Assembly: GCF_036850765.1 (NCBI RefSeq)
Contig: NC_089495.1
Coordinates: 116,025,033-116,089,032, forward strand
Origin: Saccopteryx bilineata
Taxonomy: Eukaryota; Chordata; Mammalia; Chiroptera; Emballonuridae
Length of the DNA: 64,000 nt
Reading direction: 5' to 3'
The notes under the pieces are model-generated. The model searched no databases. It was not told the origin of the DNA and saw nothing but the letters and a program-made list of their open reading frames with translations. Shown here piece by piece: positions 11,866-34,251 of the stretch (positions within the stretch are counted from its first letter, which is position 1; each line of letters opens with the position of its first letter). Position numbers and translations under genes: made by a program.

Positions 11866-12286
11866 GCCCTGGCCGGTTGGCTCAATGGTAGAGCGTCGGC
11901 CTAGCGTGTGGAGGACCCGGGTTTGATTCCCGGCCAGGGCACATAGGAGAAGCGCCCATTTGCTTCTCCACCCCTCCGCCGCGCCTTCCTCTCTGTCTCT
12001 CTCTTCCCCTCCCGCAGCCAAGGCTCCACTGGAGCAAAGATGGCCCGGGCGCTGGGGATGGCTCTGTGGCCTCTGCCCCAGGCGCTAGAGTGGCTCTGGT
12101 CACAACATGGTGACACCCAGGAGGGTCGCAACATGGTGACGCCCAGGATGGGCAGAGCATCGCCCCCTGGTGGGCAGAGCGTCGCCCCCTGGTGGGCGTG
12201 CCGGGTGGATCCCGGTCTGGCGCATGCGGGAGTCTGTCTGACTGTCTCTCCCTGTTTCCAGCTTCAGAAAAATGCAAAAAAAAAAA
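11866..12286 (+). mobile_element. Ves-like tRNA-derived SINE inside L1-A
   Basis: The head gccctggccggttggctcaa, with tggtagagcg (A box) and ggtttgattcccgg (B box), is tRNA-derived and would be transcribed by RNA polymerase III. It is followed by the gcttctccacccctccgccg body and an A tail. A target duplication AAAAACTGAAAATCGA lies at 11850-11865 and 12287-12302, so the SINE clearly inserted into L1-A ORF2. This copy is about 60 bases longer than the one at 17497 because of internal tandem duplications (see findings). Confidence 0.95.
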
Positions 12287-17496: not shown

Positions 17497-17858
17497 CCCT
17501 GGCTGGTTGGCTCAGTGGTAGAGTGTTGGCCTGGTGTGCGGGAGGCCTGGGTTCGATTCCCGGCCAGGGCACACAGGAGAGGCGCCCATCTGCTTCTCCA
17601 CCCCTCCCCCTCTCCTTCCTCTTTGTCTCTCTCTTCCCCTCCCGCAGCCAAGGCTCCATTAGAGCAAAAATTTCCCCAAGCACTGGGGATGGCTCTGTGG
17701 CCTCTGCCTCAGGCGCTAGAATGGCTCTGATTGCGGCAGAGTGACGCCCCAAGATGGGCAGAGCATCGCCCCTTGGTGGGCATGCCGGGTGGATCCTGGT
17801 CGGGCGCATGTGGGAGTCTATCTGACTGCCTCCCCATTTCCAACTTCAGAAAAAAAAA
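17497..17858 (+). mobile_element. Ves-like tRNA-derived SINE, full length
   Basis: The head ccctggctggttggctcagt and B box gggttcgattcccgg are near-perfect, then the standard body and an A tail. A 12-bp target duplication AAAGGCTACCAT flanks it at 17485-17496 and 17859-17870. This is a good reference copy of 362 bases. Short ORFs in it are chance products of the GC-rich body. Confidence 0.95.
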
Positions 17859-26279: not shown

Positions 26280-26745
26280 CTATTGCCAGAGGAATCTATT
26301 AGAGTTAAGCACGTCTTATCACTCCTCTGCACAAATATTCCAATGGTTGTATAACTCAATAAAAGGCAGAAATCACAGATGAAGACACCAAGGCTTTTAG
26401 GACTTGACCTGAAAGGCAAGATTAAATCGAGAAACAAAACATTGAAATGGTTTCCTTCCAGCCCTTCCATTGGTCCACAGGCCTGCACGAATCAGCTGCC
26501 TCTTGGGCCTGCACTTCCAGGCACTAACCCCTCATTTTCTCTCAGCTATATCAGTCTCCTTGTCCTTCCTGGAAAATGTCAGGCAGGCTCCTGCCTCAGT
26601 ACCTTGGAAATTCCTTCAGGTTTTTGCTTGGAATGCTCTTTCCCCAGATTCTATACATTCCACTGGCCCAGTCTCTCCTCTCTTGTCCTCTCCTTTCTAA
26701 CTCCTACCCCACACTCTCACTTCTCACTGGGGAACAATTTTTTTC
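26280..26745 (+). repeat. LINE-2 fragment
   Basis: The order tcactcctctgcacaaat, ctccttgtccttcctggaaa, tgtcaggcaggctcctgcct, ccttggaaattccttcaggt and tggaatgctctttccccaga matches the L2 3' half (catgctcctgcctcagggcc, tggaacgctcttccccca). Old and diverged. An ORF on this strand is incidental. Confidence 0.65.
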
Positions 26746-27061
26746 ACTTTCTGATGCATGAGGTTTTAGAACTGTTTATATATATTTCTGCATCGCTAAT
26801 TCCAAATCTGAAATTTGTTTTTTGGTTCATGCTCTAGTTTTTAAGCAATTTTAATTTCTTTTTGTTACAGTTAACGGCGTGCATTGGTTTTTAAATTGGA
26901 GTTAAAAAGCAACGATTCTTGGATTGAACATAAATAACCACAAGGCAAGTAATGTTTTACAAACATCACATTTACATAATTGTAGTTGTTTTTAAATGTA
27001 AAAAATTATTGTCTGATAAAACCACCCTCTAATTTTGTTTTAAGATTGAATCATAGCTTCT
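26746..27061. other. Unassigned flank 5' of the invertebrate-like ORF relic
   Basis: AT-rich sequence with no recognised repeat. If the relic is part of a mobile element, its left terminus should lie in or just before this stretch, but I saw no matching inverted end or polyA/target duplication. Confidence 0.35.
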
Positions 27062-28738
27062 TTGAGTAGGCGTAAATGTAAGAATAGTCCTGACACCTTC
27101 TGTTATATCTGTGGCTGTTACACACTTCAATGTCAAAGGCACAGTATTTCATCATTTGTGACACATGCATATATTGCCTATTTTCAAGTTCCCCTTGTCG
27201 ATCAAGACAAGAATTGGGCTCCTCATATTTTGTGTCATAATTATGAGGAAATGCTTCGTGACTGGACAAAAGGAAAATGCAACAGAATGCCTTTTGGTAT
27301 TCCCATGGTTTGGCGTGAACCTAAGGACCACAGCAGTGACTGTTATTTCTGTCTGATCCATACAAAGGGCATCAGCAAAACAAACAAACAAACAAAAAGA
27401 AACGGTATATGATTGCATATCCTAATATTCCTTCAGCAATACAACCTATCCCACACTCTGAGACACTCCCAGTTCCAGTATTCAATGGTTTTATTTCTTC
27501 TAAGGACAAAGAAAGTGAACATGATGATCAAGTGTATTTTGATAAGATGCATGAGGAAATGGTTGTAGAATCTGAAGGGTCTTCTTTTGATGCCAAGTAG
27601 TCGTTAACCCCTCAGCCAGTGGTAGTCAACCTGATCCCTACCACCCACTAGTGGGCATTCCAGCTTTCATGATGGGTGGTAGCAGAGCAACCAAAGTATA
27701 AATAAAAAGATAGATTTAATTATAGTAAGTTGTTTTATAAAGATTTATTCTGCCAAACAGCGAAAATCCGACATAAAGTACTTGTAAATAATTATTATTA
27801 TATTTCAACATGCTGTAACTCTGCTTTATAAATTTTATAAAGTAAAGTTACTTCCCTACTTTATAAATCACCATTACTGTGGAACTAGTAGGCAGTTAGA
27901 AAATTTTACTACTAACAGAGATACAAAAGTGGGCAGTAGGTATAAAAAGGTTGACTACCCCTGCCCTCAACAGTTTAACCAACCCACATTGAATGACTTA
28001 GTAAGAATGACATAAAAATTGTCCTCGACTTTCTGAAGTATGAGGAGCATAATTGGATCATTTGTGTGGATCTTAAAAGGTAAATTTCCTTCTAGGACAA
28101 CAGAGAGGTTTCACGAAGTATCCTTGCTTTCTGTGTTTGTGGGACAGCTGAGCTCAGGAGAAACACTGGACACAGAAGGAGTGGCTGAAATGTGAAGCTC
28201 TGGAAGTAAGGATGCAAAATATTGTGAATGAACCTGTAGTTAATCGAGACAGGATCATTTTTCCCCCACTTCACATTAACTTGGCTTAATGAAGCAATTT
28301 GTTCAGGCTTTGAATAGAGAAAGTGAGTGCTTTCAACATATTATTTCTGCTTTTCCTGCTTTGTCTTTCGAGAAGATAAAAGCAAGTGTATTCGATGGAC
28401 CTCAAATTTGAACCCTCATACATGAGGAAGAATTTGCCAGGAAAATGAATAAGGAGGAGTTAGCAGCATGGCAGTCTTTTGTGGCAGTTACAAAGAACCT
28501 CCTTGGCAACAAAAAAAACCCCAGAAAACTATGAACTTCTGGTTCAAAGGATGCTGTTGGCTTTCCATGACATTGTAACATGAGCATTAAGATTCACTTC
28601 CTGAACAGCCGCCTTGATAAGTTTCCCGAAAATCTTGAAGCTGTTAGTCATGAGCAGACTACTGCTAAGCATCAAACCAGATTGTCCTCAACAAGTACAC
28701 AAACGCAAGAGTTACAAATGCAAATTTTTGCCTGAATA
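27062..28738 (+). pseudogene. Relic of an invertebrate-type, Cys-rich transposase-like ORF of unknown function
   Basis: No gene name is known. The pieces resemble a multicopy family annotated only as uncharacterised in arthropods and cnidarians (from memory). Piece 1 (27062-27412): TTG stands where ATG is expected; motifs are SPDTFCYICG, QDKNWAPHILCHNY (a CxxC whose second Cys is Tyr), LRDWTKGKCNRMPFGIPMVW and DCYFC. A frameshift follows, then AYPNIPSAIQPIPHSE (27409-27600) to a stop. A hAT MITE interrupts at 27617-27963. Piece 2 keeps LNDLVR (about 27987), KYEEHNWIICVDLK (28036), GFTKYPCFLCLWDS (28110), PPLHINLGLMKQFV split by a frameshift (28265), LAAWQSFVAV, and NMSIKIHFLNSRLDKF (28576), ending HKRKSYKCKFLPE-stop. 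Segments after LVR and after VSHEQ are missing. No introns are visible. A zinc-binding, RNase H-like transposase is inferred. Confidence 0.75.
27617..27963. mobile_element. hAT-type MITE (347 bp)
   Basis: Terminal inverted repeats: left CAGTGGTAGTCAACCT, right reads AGGTTGACTACCCCTG, a near-perfect reverse complement. It is flanked by an 8-bp target duplication, CCCTCAGC (27609-27616) and CCCTCAAC (27964-27971), with one mismatch. Eight-base duplications and CAG...CTG-like ends are the mark of hAT transposons, several waves of which are known in bats. It has no coding capacity. Confidence 0.88.
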
Positions 28739-29379
28739 GAATTTAAATAAGTTTTGTGCAAATTTTATGATTAAAATAAGTGTTTTAATATGTTCTATTT
28801 CAAAATTTTAGACAAATTCTGATGCAAACATATCTTTTAGTGTTTTTACTGCATTATATAAATTATTATATTTTCACAAAGATGATGCCCAAGAAGACAT
28901 TCTACTTCATTATGTTAAACTAAATGTTAAAAAATTTTACAAGATGAAAACCTAAAATCTTGAATTGTAAAAAAAACTGTAGCTTACAGAGAAAAACTAA
29001 TGTCAGATTTGAAATCAGCACACTCGAATTAAGTATGAACAAGTGTTTTTGTGGATGCAACAAAAATTTTGTTCCCCAGGGATATCAGGCCAACCTTCCT
29101 TGAATACCCTGCATGAATTAATTAGTACATCCCGCTGATGTCCCCAATCTACATTCCTTTACATTATTTTCCTGCAGAGCATGCATTCCCAGCTCATACT
29201 GTCCACTTGTTCACTGTCTATAACTTAAATGCAAGCTCAGAGAGAACCTGACCACTGGGTTTGTCACTATTTCCTCAAAACTGAAAAGAGGACCAGAATT
29301 GTAATATTTTCCCAGGATATAATCAATGAATTAGTGAATGAGGTTATCTTCCCTGAACGTATATTATAGACATATTTGT
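28739..29379. other. Sequence 3' of the ORF relic, unassigned
   Basis: AT-rich, no ORF. The part to about 29070 (atttgaaatcagcacactcg, then gtgtttttgtggatgc) may be the relic's 3' UTR, since similar words follow invertebrate members as I recall them, but this is weak. No A tail or target duplication was found. The remainder is unassigned. Confidence 0.3.
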
Positions 29380-30697: not shown

Positions 30698-31498
30698 TGT
30701 AAGGTATTTTTCCCCTGCCGAGAAAGAAGGAAGGGGCCGGAGCCACAAAGTGTGGAATAATAAAAGTTTTTTTTGTTGTTTTTTTTGTATTTTTCTGAAG
30801 CTGGAAACGGGGAGAGACAGTCAGACAGACTCCCGCATGTGCCCGACCGGGATCCACCCGGCACGCCCACCAGGGGCAATGCTCTGCCCCTCTGGGGCGT
30901 CGCTCCGCCGTGACCAGAGCCACTCTAGCGCCTGGGGCAGAGACCAAGGAGCCATCCCCAGTGCCCAGGCCATCTTTGCTCCAATGGAGCCTTGGCTGCG
31001 GGAGGGGAAGAGAGAGACAGAGAGGAAGGGGGGGGGGGTGGAGAAGCAAATGGGCGCTTCTCCTATGTGCCCTGGCCGGGAATCGAACCCGGGTCCCCCG
31101 CACGCCAGGTCGACGCTCTACCGCTGAGCCAACCGGCCAGGGCCAATAAAAGGTTTTATTGAGTACAGAGCACATCCCGCCAGATGAGGTCCTCTGGTCC
31201 GGGGACAGAGACCAGAGGAGTCGCAAGGATTAAACCGTGTGAGGGATATATAAAGGGTCCCTAGGTTGGACGAGCTAATGTGACGTAGTGAAATCTCACT
31301 GGCTGACGAATGTGTCACTTTTTTGCAAAGGGTTCCTGGGAAGTTTCTTCTGGCGTGCTTGGTTGTGGGCGGTCCTAGCCAAAGTTCCCGGCCTGACCTT
31401 TCCCCATTATCCACCGACCTTACAGTTTCTTTCCCTTCCTCCTGGGGACCACAAATCACTGTGCCCTGGCAACGGGTCCCTGTCACGTCACCCTTACA
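30698..31498 (-). mobile_element. Solitary ERV-type LTR, split by a SINE
   Basis: The ends are a perfect inverted pair, TGTAAGG at 30698 and CCTTACA ending at 31498, and the match extends outward (TTTCTG / CAGAAA). On the minus strand there is a TATA-like TTTATATA near 31245, then AATAAA in CTCAATAAAACC just before the SINE insertion, the expected U3-R order. Without the SINE it is about 415 bases. Its GC and CpG content suggest a fairly young gammaretrovirus-like LTR; no viral genes remain. Confidence 0.7.
30767..31144 (-). mobile_element. Ves-like SINE inside the LTR
   Basis: Full-length, reverse orientation, ending ctgagccaaccggccagggcc split at the right edge; the B box reads ggaatcgaacccggg on the plus strand. 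Target duplication AATAAAAG at 30759-30766 and 31145-31152. The insertion sits in the LTR's polyadenylation region. It carries few changes and looks young. Confidence 0.95.
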
Positions 31499-34251
31499 GA
31501 AAGGTCAGTTATTTGTGATGGCCCTAGGAATAGCAGGGTGTTTCAGACAGCGGGTGAACTGCTCACACTCAGGACTCCCATCCCAGGAGGCACCCGAGGC
31601 TTCTGGGACTCTGGCTTTCTGAGTTCCCCAGCTGAAATAAAAGATTCTACAAGAGACCCAGGCCTTCTCTCCCAGGTCCTCCTACTTTGCCCAGTGACTC
31701 CTAGGTGAACACTGAGGCCCAGCACCTGTTGTGAAGGATCCTTGCTTCCACTTCGAGCTGCCCTCGCCTTTCTCCAAGGTTCTTCATGTTATCTCTCCAG
31801 AAGCTTCTGTGTCAGCCAAGGCCACACAGAGACATAGTTAAAAGCGCTGTTATGGATTCAGACAGGCATAGATGTGTGTCCCACAAGGCTCATGTCCCAG
31901 AGCAAATTTCCATGAGGTTCAGATTCCTCAGCTTTGCAACAGGAGGCAATAACTATCTCAGAGGACTGTTTAAGTTTAAATAATGAAATGTACCCATATA
32001 GTGGCTGGTGGATAATACAAGTGGTTATCACTGTATGTTATCTACTGTTTATTAGCACTAGTATATTTGACAGTAATTTATACTCATAGTCTAAATCACA
32101 GAAAATTTCTAAGATCTTTACTCTGAACAATGTTAATCCTCACCAGTGTGTTATATTTATGTTGCAAATGTAACTTACATAAGGTTTATAATTATAATTG
32201 ACTTCATAACATTTTACATACATTTTAGTCTCAGCATTTATTTTTCCAACATTAATATAGATATATCAACTTCTTTTTTCATTTAGTATCTGTTTGGTAT
32301 ATCGTTTTCCAATTTTCCCAACTTTTCTGAGTTCTTTTGTTCTATACATGCATCTTTAAATAATACATCTTAGATTTTTGAAATCCAATTTTAAAAACCC
32401 TATTTCTTTCTTTCTTTTTTTTTAAATTTCCTACAGCCATTTTCAGGGACCTCAATGACTTCAACTATCTTCAAATCTCATAGCATGACTTTATTTTGCC
32501 AGCTTTCTCTAGATTTCTGTAGAAACACAGGTAAGCAGCCTCATTGGCTGGCTTAAAACACTATTTCTAATTGTAAATTTAAGCCATATGCACTCATTTT
32601 ATTTTAAAATGTGATTAAAAATAATTTCTATGATCTTATATAGTGTTTTCAATTTACTATATTTCTTTTTATATTTTTTCTTTCTTTCCTTTCTTTCATC
32701 AATGTTTAGTGAGTTATTTTAATCTTTTTAAAGTTGTCCCATGGCTATGAAATTATATAACCTATTTATTAAAGGTTATCTTAAAATTTTTTATTGATAT
32801 ACTTCACCTAACAAAGTCTAAATTTGATCACTATCTCTCTCTTCCTCCTGAACACACCTTACCTGCATCTCACATACTATCTGTGCCAATATCTTTATTC
32901 ACCTTGCTTCTTTGTCCCCCTAATTATTCATTATAAATAATATTTTACTCAGTCAGTCCTTATTTCTATTTACTCAACTTTATCAACTTCTTTACCAACT
33001 TACACTTTCTTTATGAAGTTCATGCTTCCACAGTTCACGCCTTGCCCCTTGGCATTGAAACCCAAATCCTGTGTTTCGCCATCACCCAGAGCAGCCACAG
33101 CACCAGCACCTGAGCATCCAGCTCTCGTTCCAGTCCATCTTTGAGGCTAGCAGCTGGAGAGCTTCATTTTTCTCTTGCAAGCTCAGCAATGTACTTAAAA
33201 GACTGTTATAGCGTATTCTGCATTTCAAGGTATATATCATTGGGGTTTTTTGATAGTGATCAAGCGAAGTCACGTTCATACATTGATTAAATTTTAGGTG
33301 GCAGGCTGTGTTCTCACTGTCAGAGCCACAATAATGGGAAGTAAAACAGTCTGGCCCTCAAGGAGATTCCCATCTAACAGAGATAGTTATAGGTCAAATA
33401 TGTGCAGTGAAGAACTTTAGGACTCATAGATGCTATACCTACTAGGTCTCACAGTAGACTGAGCTTCCTAAGAATAAATATGCTGTCTTGATTGTCTTCC
33501 CATCCCGAGTATGTTAGCAAGAAAGTACTATCCTGCTATATAGAAAGTACTCCATACATGTGTATTGCCTGAACATATGAATGAATTCTAGAAATCAACA
33601 AATGTTTTTCTTATTGCTTAGTCCCAGTTTTTAATTCATGAGAAGTAAGATGTTTACCATCTTCTAATTATATATAGATTTTTATAAAGGTTTTATTTGA
33701 AAAATATTTAATTTTTATTGTACTACTACAAATACTAGTTAACAATTGAATCTCCACTATATCGAGCATTGTTCCCAGAAGTTTCCAGACATCATCTTAT
33801 TTTAACCTCACAATAGCTATAAAGTAGGGCATTTGTGGCCAAGATAGGGTTGCCCATTTGAGGCTACTTTAGGAAGTAATTTAAATAAGTCTCACTGTAG
33901 TTTCTGTTCTTGGTGTACTATACCTATATGCATTTGTCAGACTCTGGTTTCAGTAGTAATTTTTTAATAGAGATTATCCATTCTTCTTACTACTATAGTC
34001 AATGTTTGTGACACTTAGCTCATTTACAACTTGATTACAGTCTTACTGATTAATAATCACTGGGCTAGAAAATCCACACCGACTCTGGTGACTATGCGCC
34101 ACGCTGACTGTACTGCTACGTTGTTCTTAAAATCTGCAACTAGAACACATTTATATCTGTGATTCATTTTTCATCCATAGCTTCCTTCTCCACACACCTT
34201 CCAGCTAGGAGGGTGCAGGCTATCTGCTACCATTAGCAATCCCAAACACTT
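31499..34251. other. Unassigned sequence
   Basis: No functional gene. The minus strand at 33075-33270 reads, with one frameshift and a stop, like a short coiled-coil protein (DIYLEMQNTL, then FKYIAELARE, then GLERELDAQ), possibly a decayed processed pseudogene whose parent I cannot name. The stretch at 33765-33905 may be an old MIR. A poly-pyrimidine run lies at 32404-32424. Confidence 0.3.

Follow-up and report, generated by a model that had tools for sequence, protein, structure and literature searches.

How does a coding sequence that resembles invertebrate proteins come to lie, in broken pieces, in the genome of a bat? The locus is found in a window of 64,000 nucleotides (by the window we mean this whole stretch) of Saccopteryx bilineata, NC_089495.1, positions 116,025,033 to 116,089,032 of the forward strand. 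An earlier note, made from the sequence alone, had described a decayed, cysteine-rich coding remnant at 27062-28738, and had proposed a mobile element, perhaps acquired horizontally. We are confident that the locus is a dead, internally deleted and non-autonomous copy of a DNA transposon of the Chapaev3 type, in the CMC superfamily, whose transposase has a predicted RAG1/Transib fold. The positions given in the note hold the coding remnant; the element itself reaches from 26725 to 29081.

Relatives, ends and copies

The motifs quoted in the note are present on the plus strand. For the first open piece (27050-27412), 103 of 107 candidates are relatives at E <= 0.001, the best of them at 9.8e-54. 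Those with an organism name include a mantis shrimp (Oratosquilla), a glass sponge (Oopsacas) and a beetle (Diabrotica), and a further search adds Hydra and the bat Saccopteryx leptura. The note was right that the family is of invertebrate type.

Against the S. leptura protein P0105, which is uncharacterised, 681 residues long and annotated as isoform X4, the window aligns in eight pieces with 355 of 411 residues identical (five residues being common to pieces one and two). Over the first 112 residues, corresponding to 27053-27388, the identity is 84%. With the core of P0105 as query, 1,247 proteins are found at E <= 0.001 among 4,459 candidates. The nearest relatives (P0107, P0109 and P0114) are 77-79% identical to the bat core. 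Among the matches listed, which for this query are the best 120, the named hosts of the family are Hydra, glass sponge, mantis shrimp, beetles, a psyllid, two frogs, a worm lizard and S. leptura.

Full-length members carry a single uninterrupted frame of about 565 codons, encoding a DDE transposase, in agreement with the lack of introns remarked on earlier. In the alignment, D265 and D319 are present in 52 of 52 rows, while E514 and E517 are present in all 50 rows with a residue; the catalytic glutamate would be one or the other of the last two. Further, C338 and C341 (52/52), L386 and H387 (51/51), H495 (49/50) and H500 (50/50 rows with a residue) form C(2)C, LH and H(4)H motifs.

In Pfam no piece or protein of the family reached the cutoff (two sets, of 9 and 6 sequences); the lines HEV_ORF1 and Cnn_1N fell below it and are taken as chance. 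NCBIfam matched none of three family sequences, and a search of PDB by sequence gave nothing relevant. A viral origin was rejected, since no relative was confirmed among 72 pattern matches in viral contigs or 50 in prokaryote genomes, and none of 367 matches to viral structures reached E <= 1e-3. One family member (P0177) is filed in a Pseudomonadota metagenome bin; as no prokaryote relative was confirmed, it is probably eukaryotic contamination. A protein of the frog Anomaloglossus baeobatrachus named olfactory receptor 2AP1-like (P0160) begins with the N-terminal zinc domain of the family, and may owe this to a faulty gene model or to the capture of an exon.

A search of the bat's own genome gave 4,035 first-look candidates, of which 150 were scored, the window copy among them. 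All 150 match at E <= 7.9e-55. The sequence is part of the genome, as the note had held. Sixty other copies were fetched out of the best-scoring hits, and the counts of ends, flanks and junctions given here refer to these. Terminal inverted repeats of the form CAC...GTG are found at the left end in 45, at the right end in 52 and at both ends in 38 of the 60. In the window copy, the end-to-end alignment of the inverted repeats scores 54.5, while the highest score among 1,000 shuffles is 51; this margin is modest by itself, and the proof of the ends lies in the other genomic copies.

A 22-base pattern from the right end has 1,051 exact occurrences in the 2.61-Gb genome, against 0 for its reversed control. 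The pattern is present in 25 of the 60 fetched copies, and scaling by this fraction gives about 2,500 right ends genome-wide, a rough figure as the 60 were drawn from the best-scoring hits. Chance is excluded because of the 150 strong matches and the 1,051 exact ends against none in the control, and the family has about a thousand copies or more in this genome. The note had named two outcomes that would speak against it, and where tested neither was found: the sequence is not a single-copy host gene in this genome, and its similarity to invertebrate proteins is highly significant.

The three bases on either side of the element are identical in 18 of the 38 two-ended copies, and in 14 of these 18 they read TWA. 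Re-pairing the flanks at random in 2,000 trials yields 6.6 identical pairs on average and never more than 14. An A stands at -4 in 24 and a T at +4 in 29 of the 38 copies, giving the site pattern A-TWA, then CACTGGGGAACAA...TTGTTCCCCAGTG, then TWA-T. Thus the alignment of copies that the note had recommended does return ends, terminal repeats and target duplications, and these together with the 1,051 exact ends confirm a mobile element. At other lengths the flanks are identical in 6 (2 bp), 1 (4 bp), 1 (5 bp) and 0 (8 bp) of the 38 copies. In general hAT elements duplicate 8 bp, Tc1-mariner elements TA and piggyBac elements TTAA, and on these counts membership of the element in any of the three groups was rejected. 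When 120 + 120 flank bases of the 38 copies were joined and searched for empty sites, only weak matches of 70-72% (L011) were found, and they are not used as evidence.

The features correspond to those published for the Chapaev3 families Merrow, Garfield and Conan (PMC4079192, cited throughout from a part of its text): CAC...GTG ends, a 3-bp TWA duplication between A and T, the C(2)C, LH and H(4)H motifs, star-like relations between copies, and a patchy spread over vertebrates and invertebrates. In kind the family is therefore not undescribed, whereas the note had called its biochemistry undescribed. This likeness is drawn from motifs and description. Complete Merrow and Garfield elements measure 2,289-2,455 bp and encode transposases of 556-562 residues (PMC4079192), compared with 2,385-2,391 bp in the two bat copies that have both ends and no large deletion, and about 565 codons. 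The bat family has one uninterrupted frame, whereas Merrow and Garfield have two exons; most other Chapaev3 elements are single-exon (PMC4079192). In Table 1 of the same paper the mammalian host is the tenrec (Conan, 1,865 bp, 88 copies), while here it is a bat with more than 1,000 right ends.

Age and descent of the family

Two internal deletions, A and B, divide the fetched copies: by DNA coverage the B segment is missing from 26, both segments from 20, the A segment from 2 and most of the core from 7, while 5 have no such loss. At their ends the copies differ by 0.062 on average (1,820 pairs, 61 copies, CpG sites left out), and by 0.057-0.066 within the classes having ten or more pairs. The tree of the copies is star-like and the deletion labels are scattered over it, with 17 and 13 changes for A and B against means of 18.4 and 12.6 for shuffled labels. 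The star-like tree and the similar divergence across classes fit one burst of expansion. At a rate of 2 to 2.5e-9 substitutions per site per year this burst would be roughly 12-16 million years old, perhaps older, since the copies were chosen for good preservation. A single burst has also been reported for other Chapaev3 families (PMC4079192).

In a tree of 43 rows (10 with an organism, and one further row from a bacterial bin resembling contamination) the lizard pairs with Hydra (100/94), and frog and bat are placed in two separate subclades of one larger clade (98/94, 24 of the 43 rows). In a tree of 153 rows lizard and Hydra fall together again, in a group of four rows (0.899). The patchy hosts, the young copies and the grouping of lizard with Hydra support horizontal transfer, the most likely way in which the family entered an ancestor of this bat.

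Alternatively, the family could have been inherited from a vertebrate ancestor and lost almost everywhere. Its presence in frogs, a lizard and a bat is in line with such a history, and so is the larger clade that holds both frog and bat. However, the lizard sides with Hydra in both trees, published Chapaev3 families spread horizontally (PMC4079192), and copies that differ by about 6% in a star-like manner are far too young for an ancient vertebrate family kept by descent. We therefore consider vertical inheritance improbable.

Some observations weigh against a Chapaev3-type element that arrived by horizontal transfer. The tree alone shows such transfer for the lizard or Hydra and not for the bat, so this part of the earlier proposal is likely but is not borne out by the tree itself. 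Further, no 3-bp duplication is visible in 20 of the 38 two-ended copies, and inspection of the flanks shows none in the window copy, a point that concerns this copy alone. On balance, the family would have entered an ancestor of the bat, expanded in one burst and then decayed neutrally.

Transposase fold and the relation to Transib

Structure prediction, which the note had proposed in order to look for an RNase H fold, gives the transposase a DDE/RNase H-type fold, and by fold comparison the enzyme is predicted to share the fold of RAG1 and Transib. Taken with the zinc-rich sequence, this prediction agrees with the earlier suggestion of a zinc-binding nuclease or transposase. HzTransib transposase (PDB 6pqx) is listed among the closest known systems. 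The RAG1 core has 10% identity; RAG1 is a host recombinase, whereas the bat family is a mobile element.

The N-terminal part is a cysteine-rich domain that resembles ZAD by fold, with all scores below formal thresholds. In insect transcription factors and ZNF276 the ZAD domain (Pfam zf-AD) is followed by zinc fingers, while here it is followed by a transposase. A common origin of the two domains may be worth considering on the basis of the modelled fold. An N-terminal Chapa zinc domain is described as a feature of Chapaev3 (PMC4411706, likewise cited from a part of its text).

The predicted fold could also be read as a sign that the family belongs to the Transib/RAG-like lineage proper and not to Chapaev3. 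Transib duplications are typically 5 bp (PMC4411706), a length found in 1 of the 38 copies, against 18 at 3 bp. The traits published for Chapaev3 include the TWA target as well as the H(4)H motif (PMC4079192), and a profile search of PDB found no Transib or RAG1 by sequence. This placement seems to us quite improbable. In one published scheme Chapaev3 is a clade within a wider Transib superfamily (PMC4411706), and under that scheme the two readings differ more in rank than in kind.

As a Chapaev3-type enzyme, the transposase would bind the long inverted repeats, probably with the ZAD-like zinc domain helping in dimerisation or binding, and would cut next to CAC/GTG. The element would insert between A and T at TWA, duplicating those three bases.

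The window copy, its deletions and its surroundings

The features of the window copy, including a miniature inverted-repeat transposable element (MITE), are the following.

26725-29081, plus strand: whole transposon copy, 2,357 bp, very probably a non-autonomous deletion derivative of Chapaev3 type (inverted repeats; ends common to other genomic copies)
26725-26744, plus strand: left terminal inverted repeat, CACTGGGGAACAATTTTTTT (repeat pair 21 nt, 86%; in 45/60 fetched copies at <=3 mismatches in 14)
26795-26822, plus strand: left subterminal inverted repeat (86% over 28 nt against 28992-29019 reversed)
27053-27388, plus strand: transposase codons 1-112, N-terminal zinc domain with ZAD-like fold and DCYFC motif; start codon ATA at 27053; one Cys, invariant in alignment A1, replaced by Tyr (P0105 identity, conserved Cys columns, fold comparison)
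27391-27600, plus strand: transposase codons 108-176 in a different frame, stop at 27598-27600 (P0105 alignment)
27617-27963, no strand assigned: presumed hAT-type MITE inside the transposon (inverted ends; 8-bp duplication 27609-27616 / 27964-27971)
27965-28006, plus strand: transposase codons 181-194, then the junction of deletion A (325 bp; first catalytic Asp lost) (protein and DNA alignment)
28006-28286, plus strand: transposase codons 303-326 and 328-396, with the second catalytic Asp (CVDLK), C(2)C zinc motif and LH motif; stop at 28149-28151 (alignment)
28283-28498, plus strand: transposase codons 396-467 (GLMKQFV...); stop at 28409-28411 (alignment)
28521-28657, plus strand: transposase codons 474-490 and 493-520 in two frames, H(4)H site with its second His now Arg (alignment); at about 28657 the junction of deletion B, 76-77 bp gone including the catalytic Glu
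28658-28739, plus strand: C-terminal end of the transposase (KPDCPQQVHKRKSYKCKFLPE, stop) (alignment)
28992-29019, minus strand: right subterminal inverted repeat (pairs with 26795-26822)
29062-29081, minus strand: right terminal inverted repeat, the terminal GTG being GGG here (right end in 52/60 fetched copies)

The frameshifts and stops noticed earlier are real: there are three stops, several frame changes and a lost start codon. The two deletions are a different matter, as the note had counted them as decay in place. At the DNA level they measure 325 and 76-77 bp, and a protein-level reading of them as in-frame deletions was rejected on these lengths. In a direct search at up to 4 mismatches, 19 of the 60 copies show junction A (11 of them exactly), 41 show junction B (20 exactly) and 17 show both, while the undeleted A site is found in 37 and the undeleted B site in 7. 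The window copy has junction A exactly; at junction B it agrees over 17 bases across the break and is then one base short. The count for deletion B depends on the method, being about 33 by protein alignment, 46 by DNA coverage and 41 by junction. Coverage and junction calls differ for nine copies, of which some are truncated or carry private deletions; the junction figures are the safer ones.

Could both deletions have arisen in the window copy after its insertion, the match with other copies being due to recurrent deletion at the same sites? The 4-base microhomology at junction B (GCAG) makes recurrence conceivable, and all four combinations of A and B are found among the copies. However, junction A has an overlap of 1 base alone and is nevertheless shared exactly with 11 other copies, and junction B is more widespread still; independent origin is very improbable.

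Since the junctions are common to other copies, the deletions very probably predate the insertion. The window copy lacks the first catalytic Asp and the Glu at E517, both deleted, and deletion B in addition shifts the frame. Thus it is probable that this non-autonomous Chapaev3-type copy at no time produced a working enzyme in its present position, and that enzyme made elsewhere moved it. In general, copies without the catalytic Asp and Glu kept their ends and could be moved in trans by the enzyme of intact copies; at least one genomic copy is listed with a stop-free open frame of 572 residues.

The MITE of 347 bp has 16-bp inverted ends (94%) and an 8-bp duplication matching at 7 of 8 positions (CCCTCAGC/CCCTCAAC). 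It was recognised in the note; the hAT-type label is one we presume from the length of the duplication and from the end sequences usual in hAT elements. As it is inserted inside the transposon with its own duplication, it is a later arrival.

An element with deletion B could have kept the coding capacity for the ZAD domain, for both catalytic Asps and for the greater part of the core. It is conceivable, if rather unlikely, that the burst limited itself in this way: dead enzyme from such copies, in excess, would have occupied the ends and poisoned active multimers until the invasion ended. KP elements of the P transposon offer a parallel of self-limiting deleted copies.

In the S. bilineata genome, L010 matches P0105 in 551 of 564 residues in one frame. 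It has in common with P0105 residues by which that protein differs from the other rows, and its codon 105 is a stop. It is found with L069 and L071 at G000:C4, about 45.15-45.18 Mb. The tail of P0105 is recovered downstream of L010 in separate stretches (21/21, 79/84 and 14/15 residues). From these alignments L010 is likely the orthologue of P0105, and P0105 appears to combine, by splicing, a transposase frame with host exons of the same locus, a candidate fusion in S. leptura. For S. bilineata the stop in L010 speaks against recruitment of the fusion.

Among the five copies without large deletions (10 pairs) the divergence is 0.036 and 0.042 in the coding parts and 0.058 at the ends. Codon positions diverge about alike in copies with B or with both deletions, the third position is not raised in the five undeleted copies, and codon positions in these three sets do not show purifying selection. 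In the B and AB copies the N-terminal part is less diverged than the ends, perhaps as the hits were ranked by this part.

An old host-gene relic, or a processed pseudogene whose parent was a bat gene of transposase origin, has next to no chance of being correct: the annotated S. leptura member with its likely orthologue and the lower coding divergence of the undeleted copies would suit it, but against it stand the 1,051 exact ends with 3-bp duplications, the shared noncoding ends that a retrocopied messenger RNA would not carry, the codon positions and the stop in L010.

Elsewhere in the window there is a match to SNORA33 (91 bits, 32429-32554, minus strand), which may be a retroposed copy of this small nucleolar RNA. 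The usual host gene of SNORA33 is RPS12; a protein search of the window for RPS12 found nothing, and identity with the host locus is not claimed. Weak transfer RNA matches are seen at 11871-11941, 17501-17566 and 31068-31138, and two of the three look like heads of one family of short interspersed elements derived from transfer RNA.

In the 2014 survey of Chapaev, as far as its cited part goes, the tenrec was the only mammal, and dozens of further mammalian genomes had yielded no Conan (PMC4079192). A paper on bats (PMC4298943) names Chapaev once in its available part, in a list of superfamilies, and among the matches listed in searches of an open-licence library none deals with Chapaev in bats or with transposons of Saccopteryx. 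The bat family adds a lineage with a predicted RAG1 fold to the hAT, piggyBac and other DNA transposons acquired by bats (PMC4298943). Its copies can be dated and have clean ends and target duplications, and members with long open frames are common in databases, which would allow a direct assay of the enzyme. From the shared junctions it can be seen how most of the sampled copies came to be deleted derivatives. Finally, a transposase with a predicted RAG1 fold and a ZAD-like domain, in a mammal that itself uses RAG1, would be a useful comparison for how such enzymes work.
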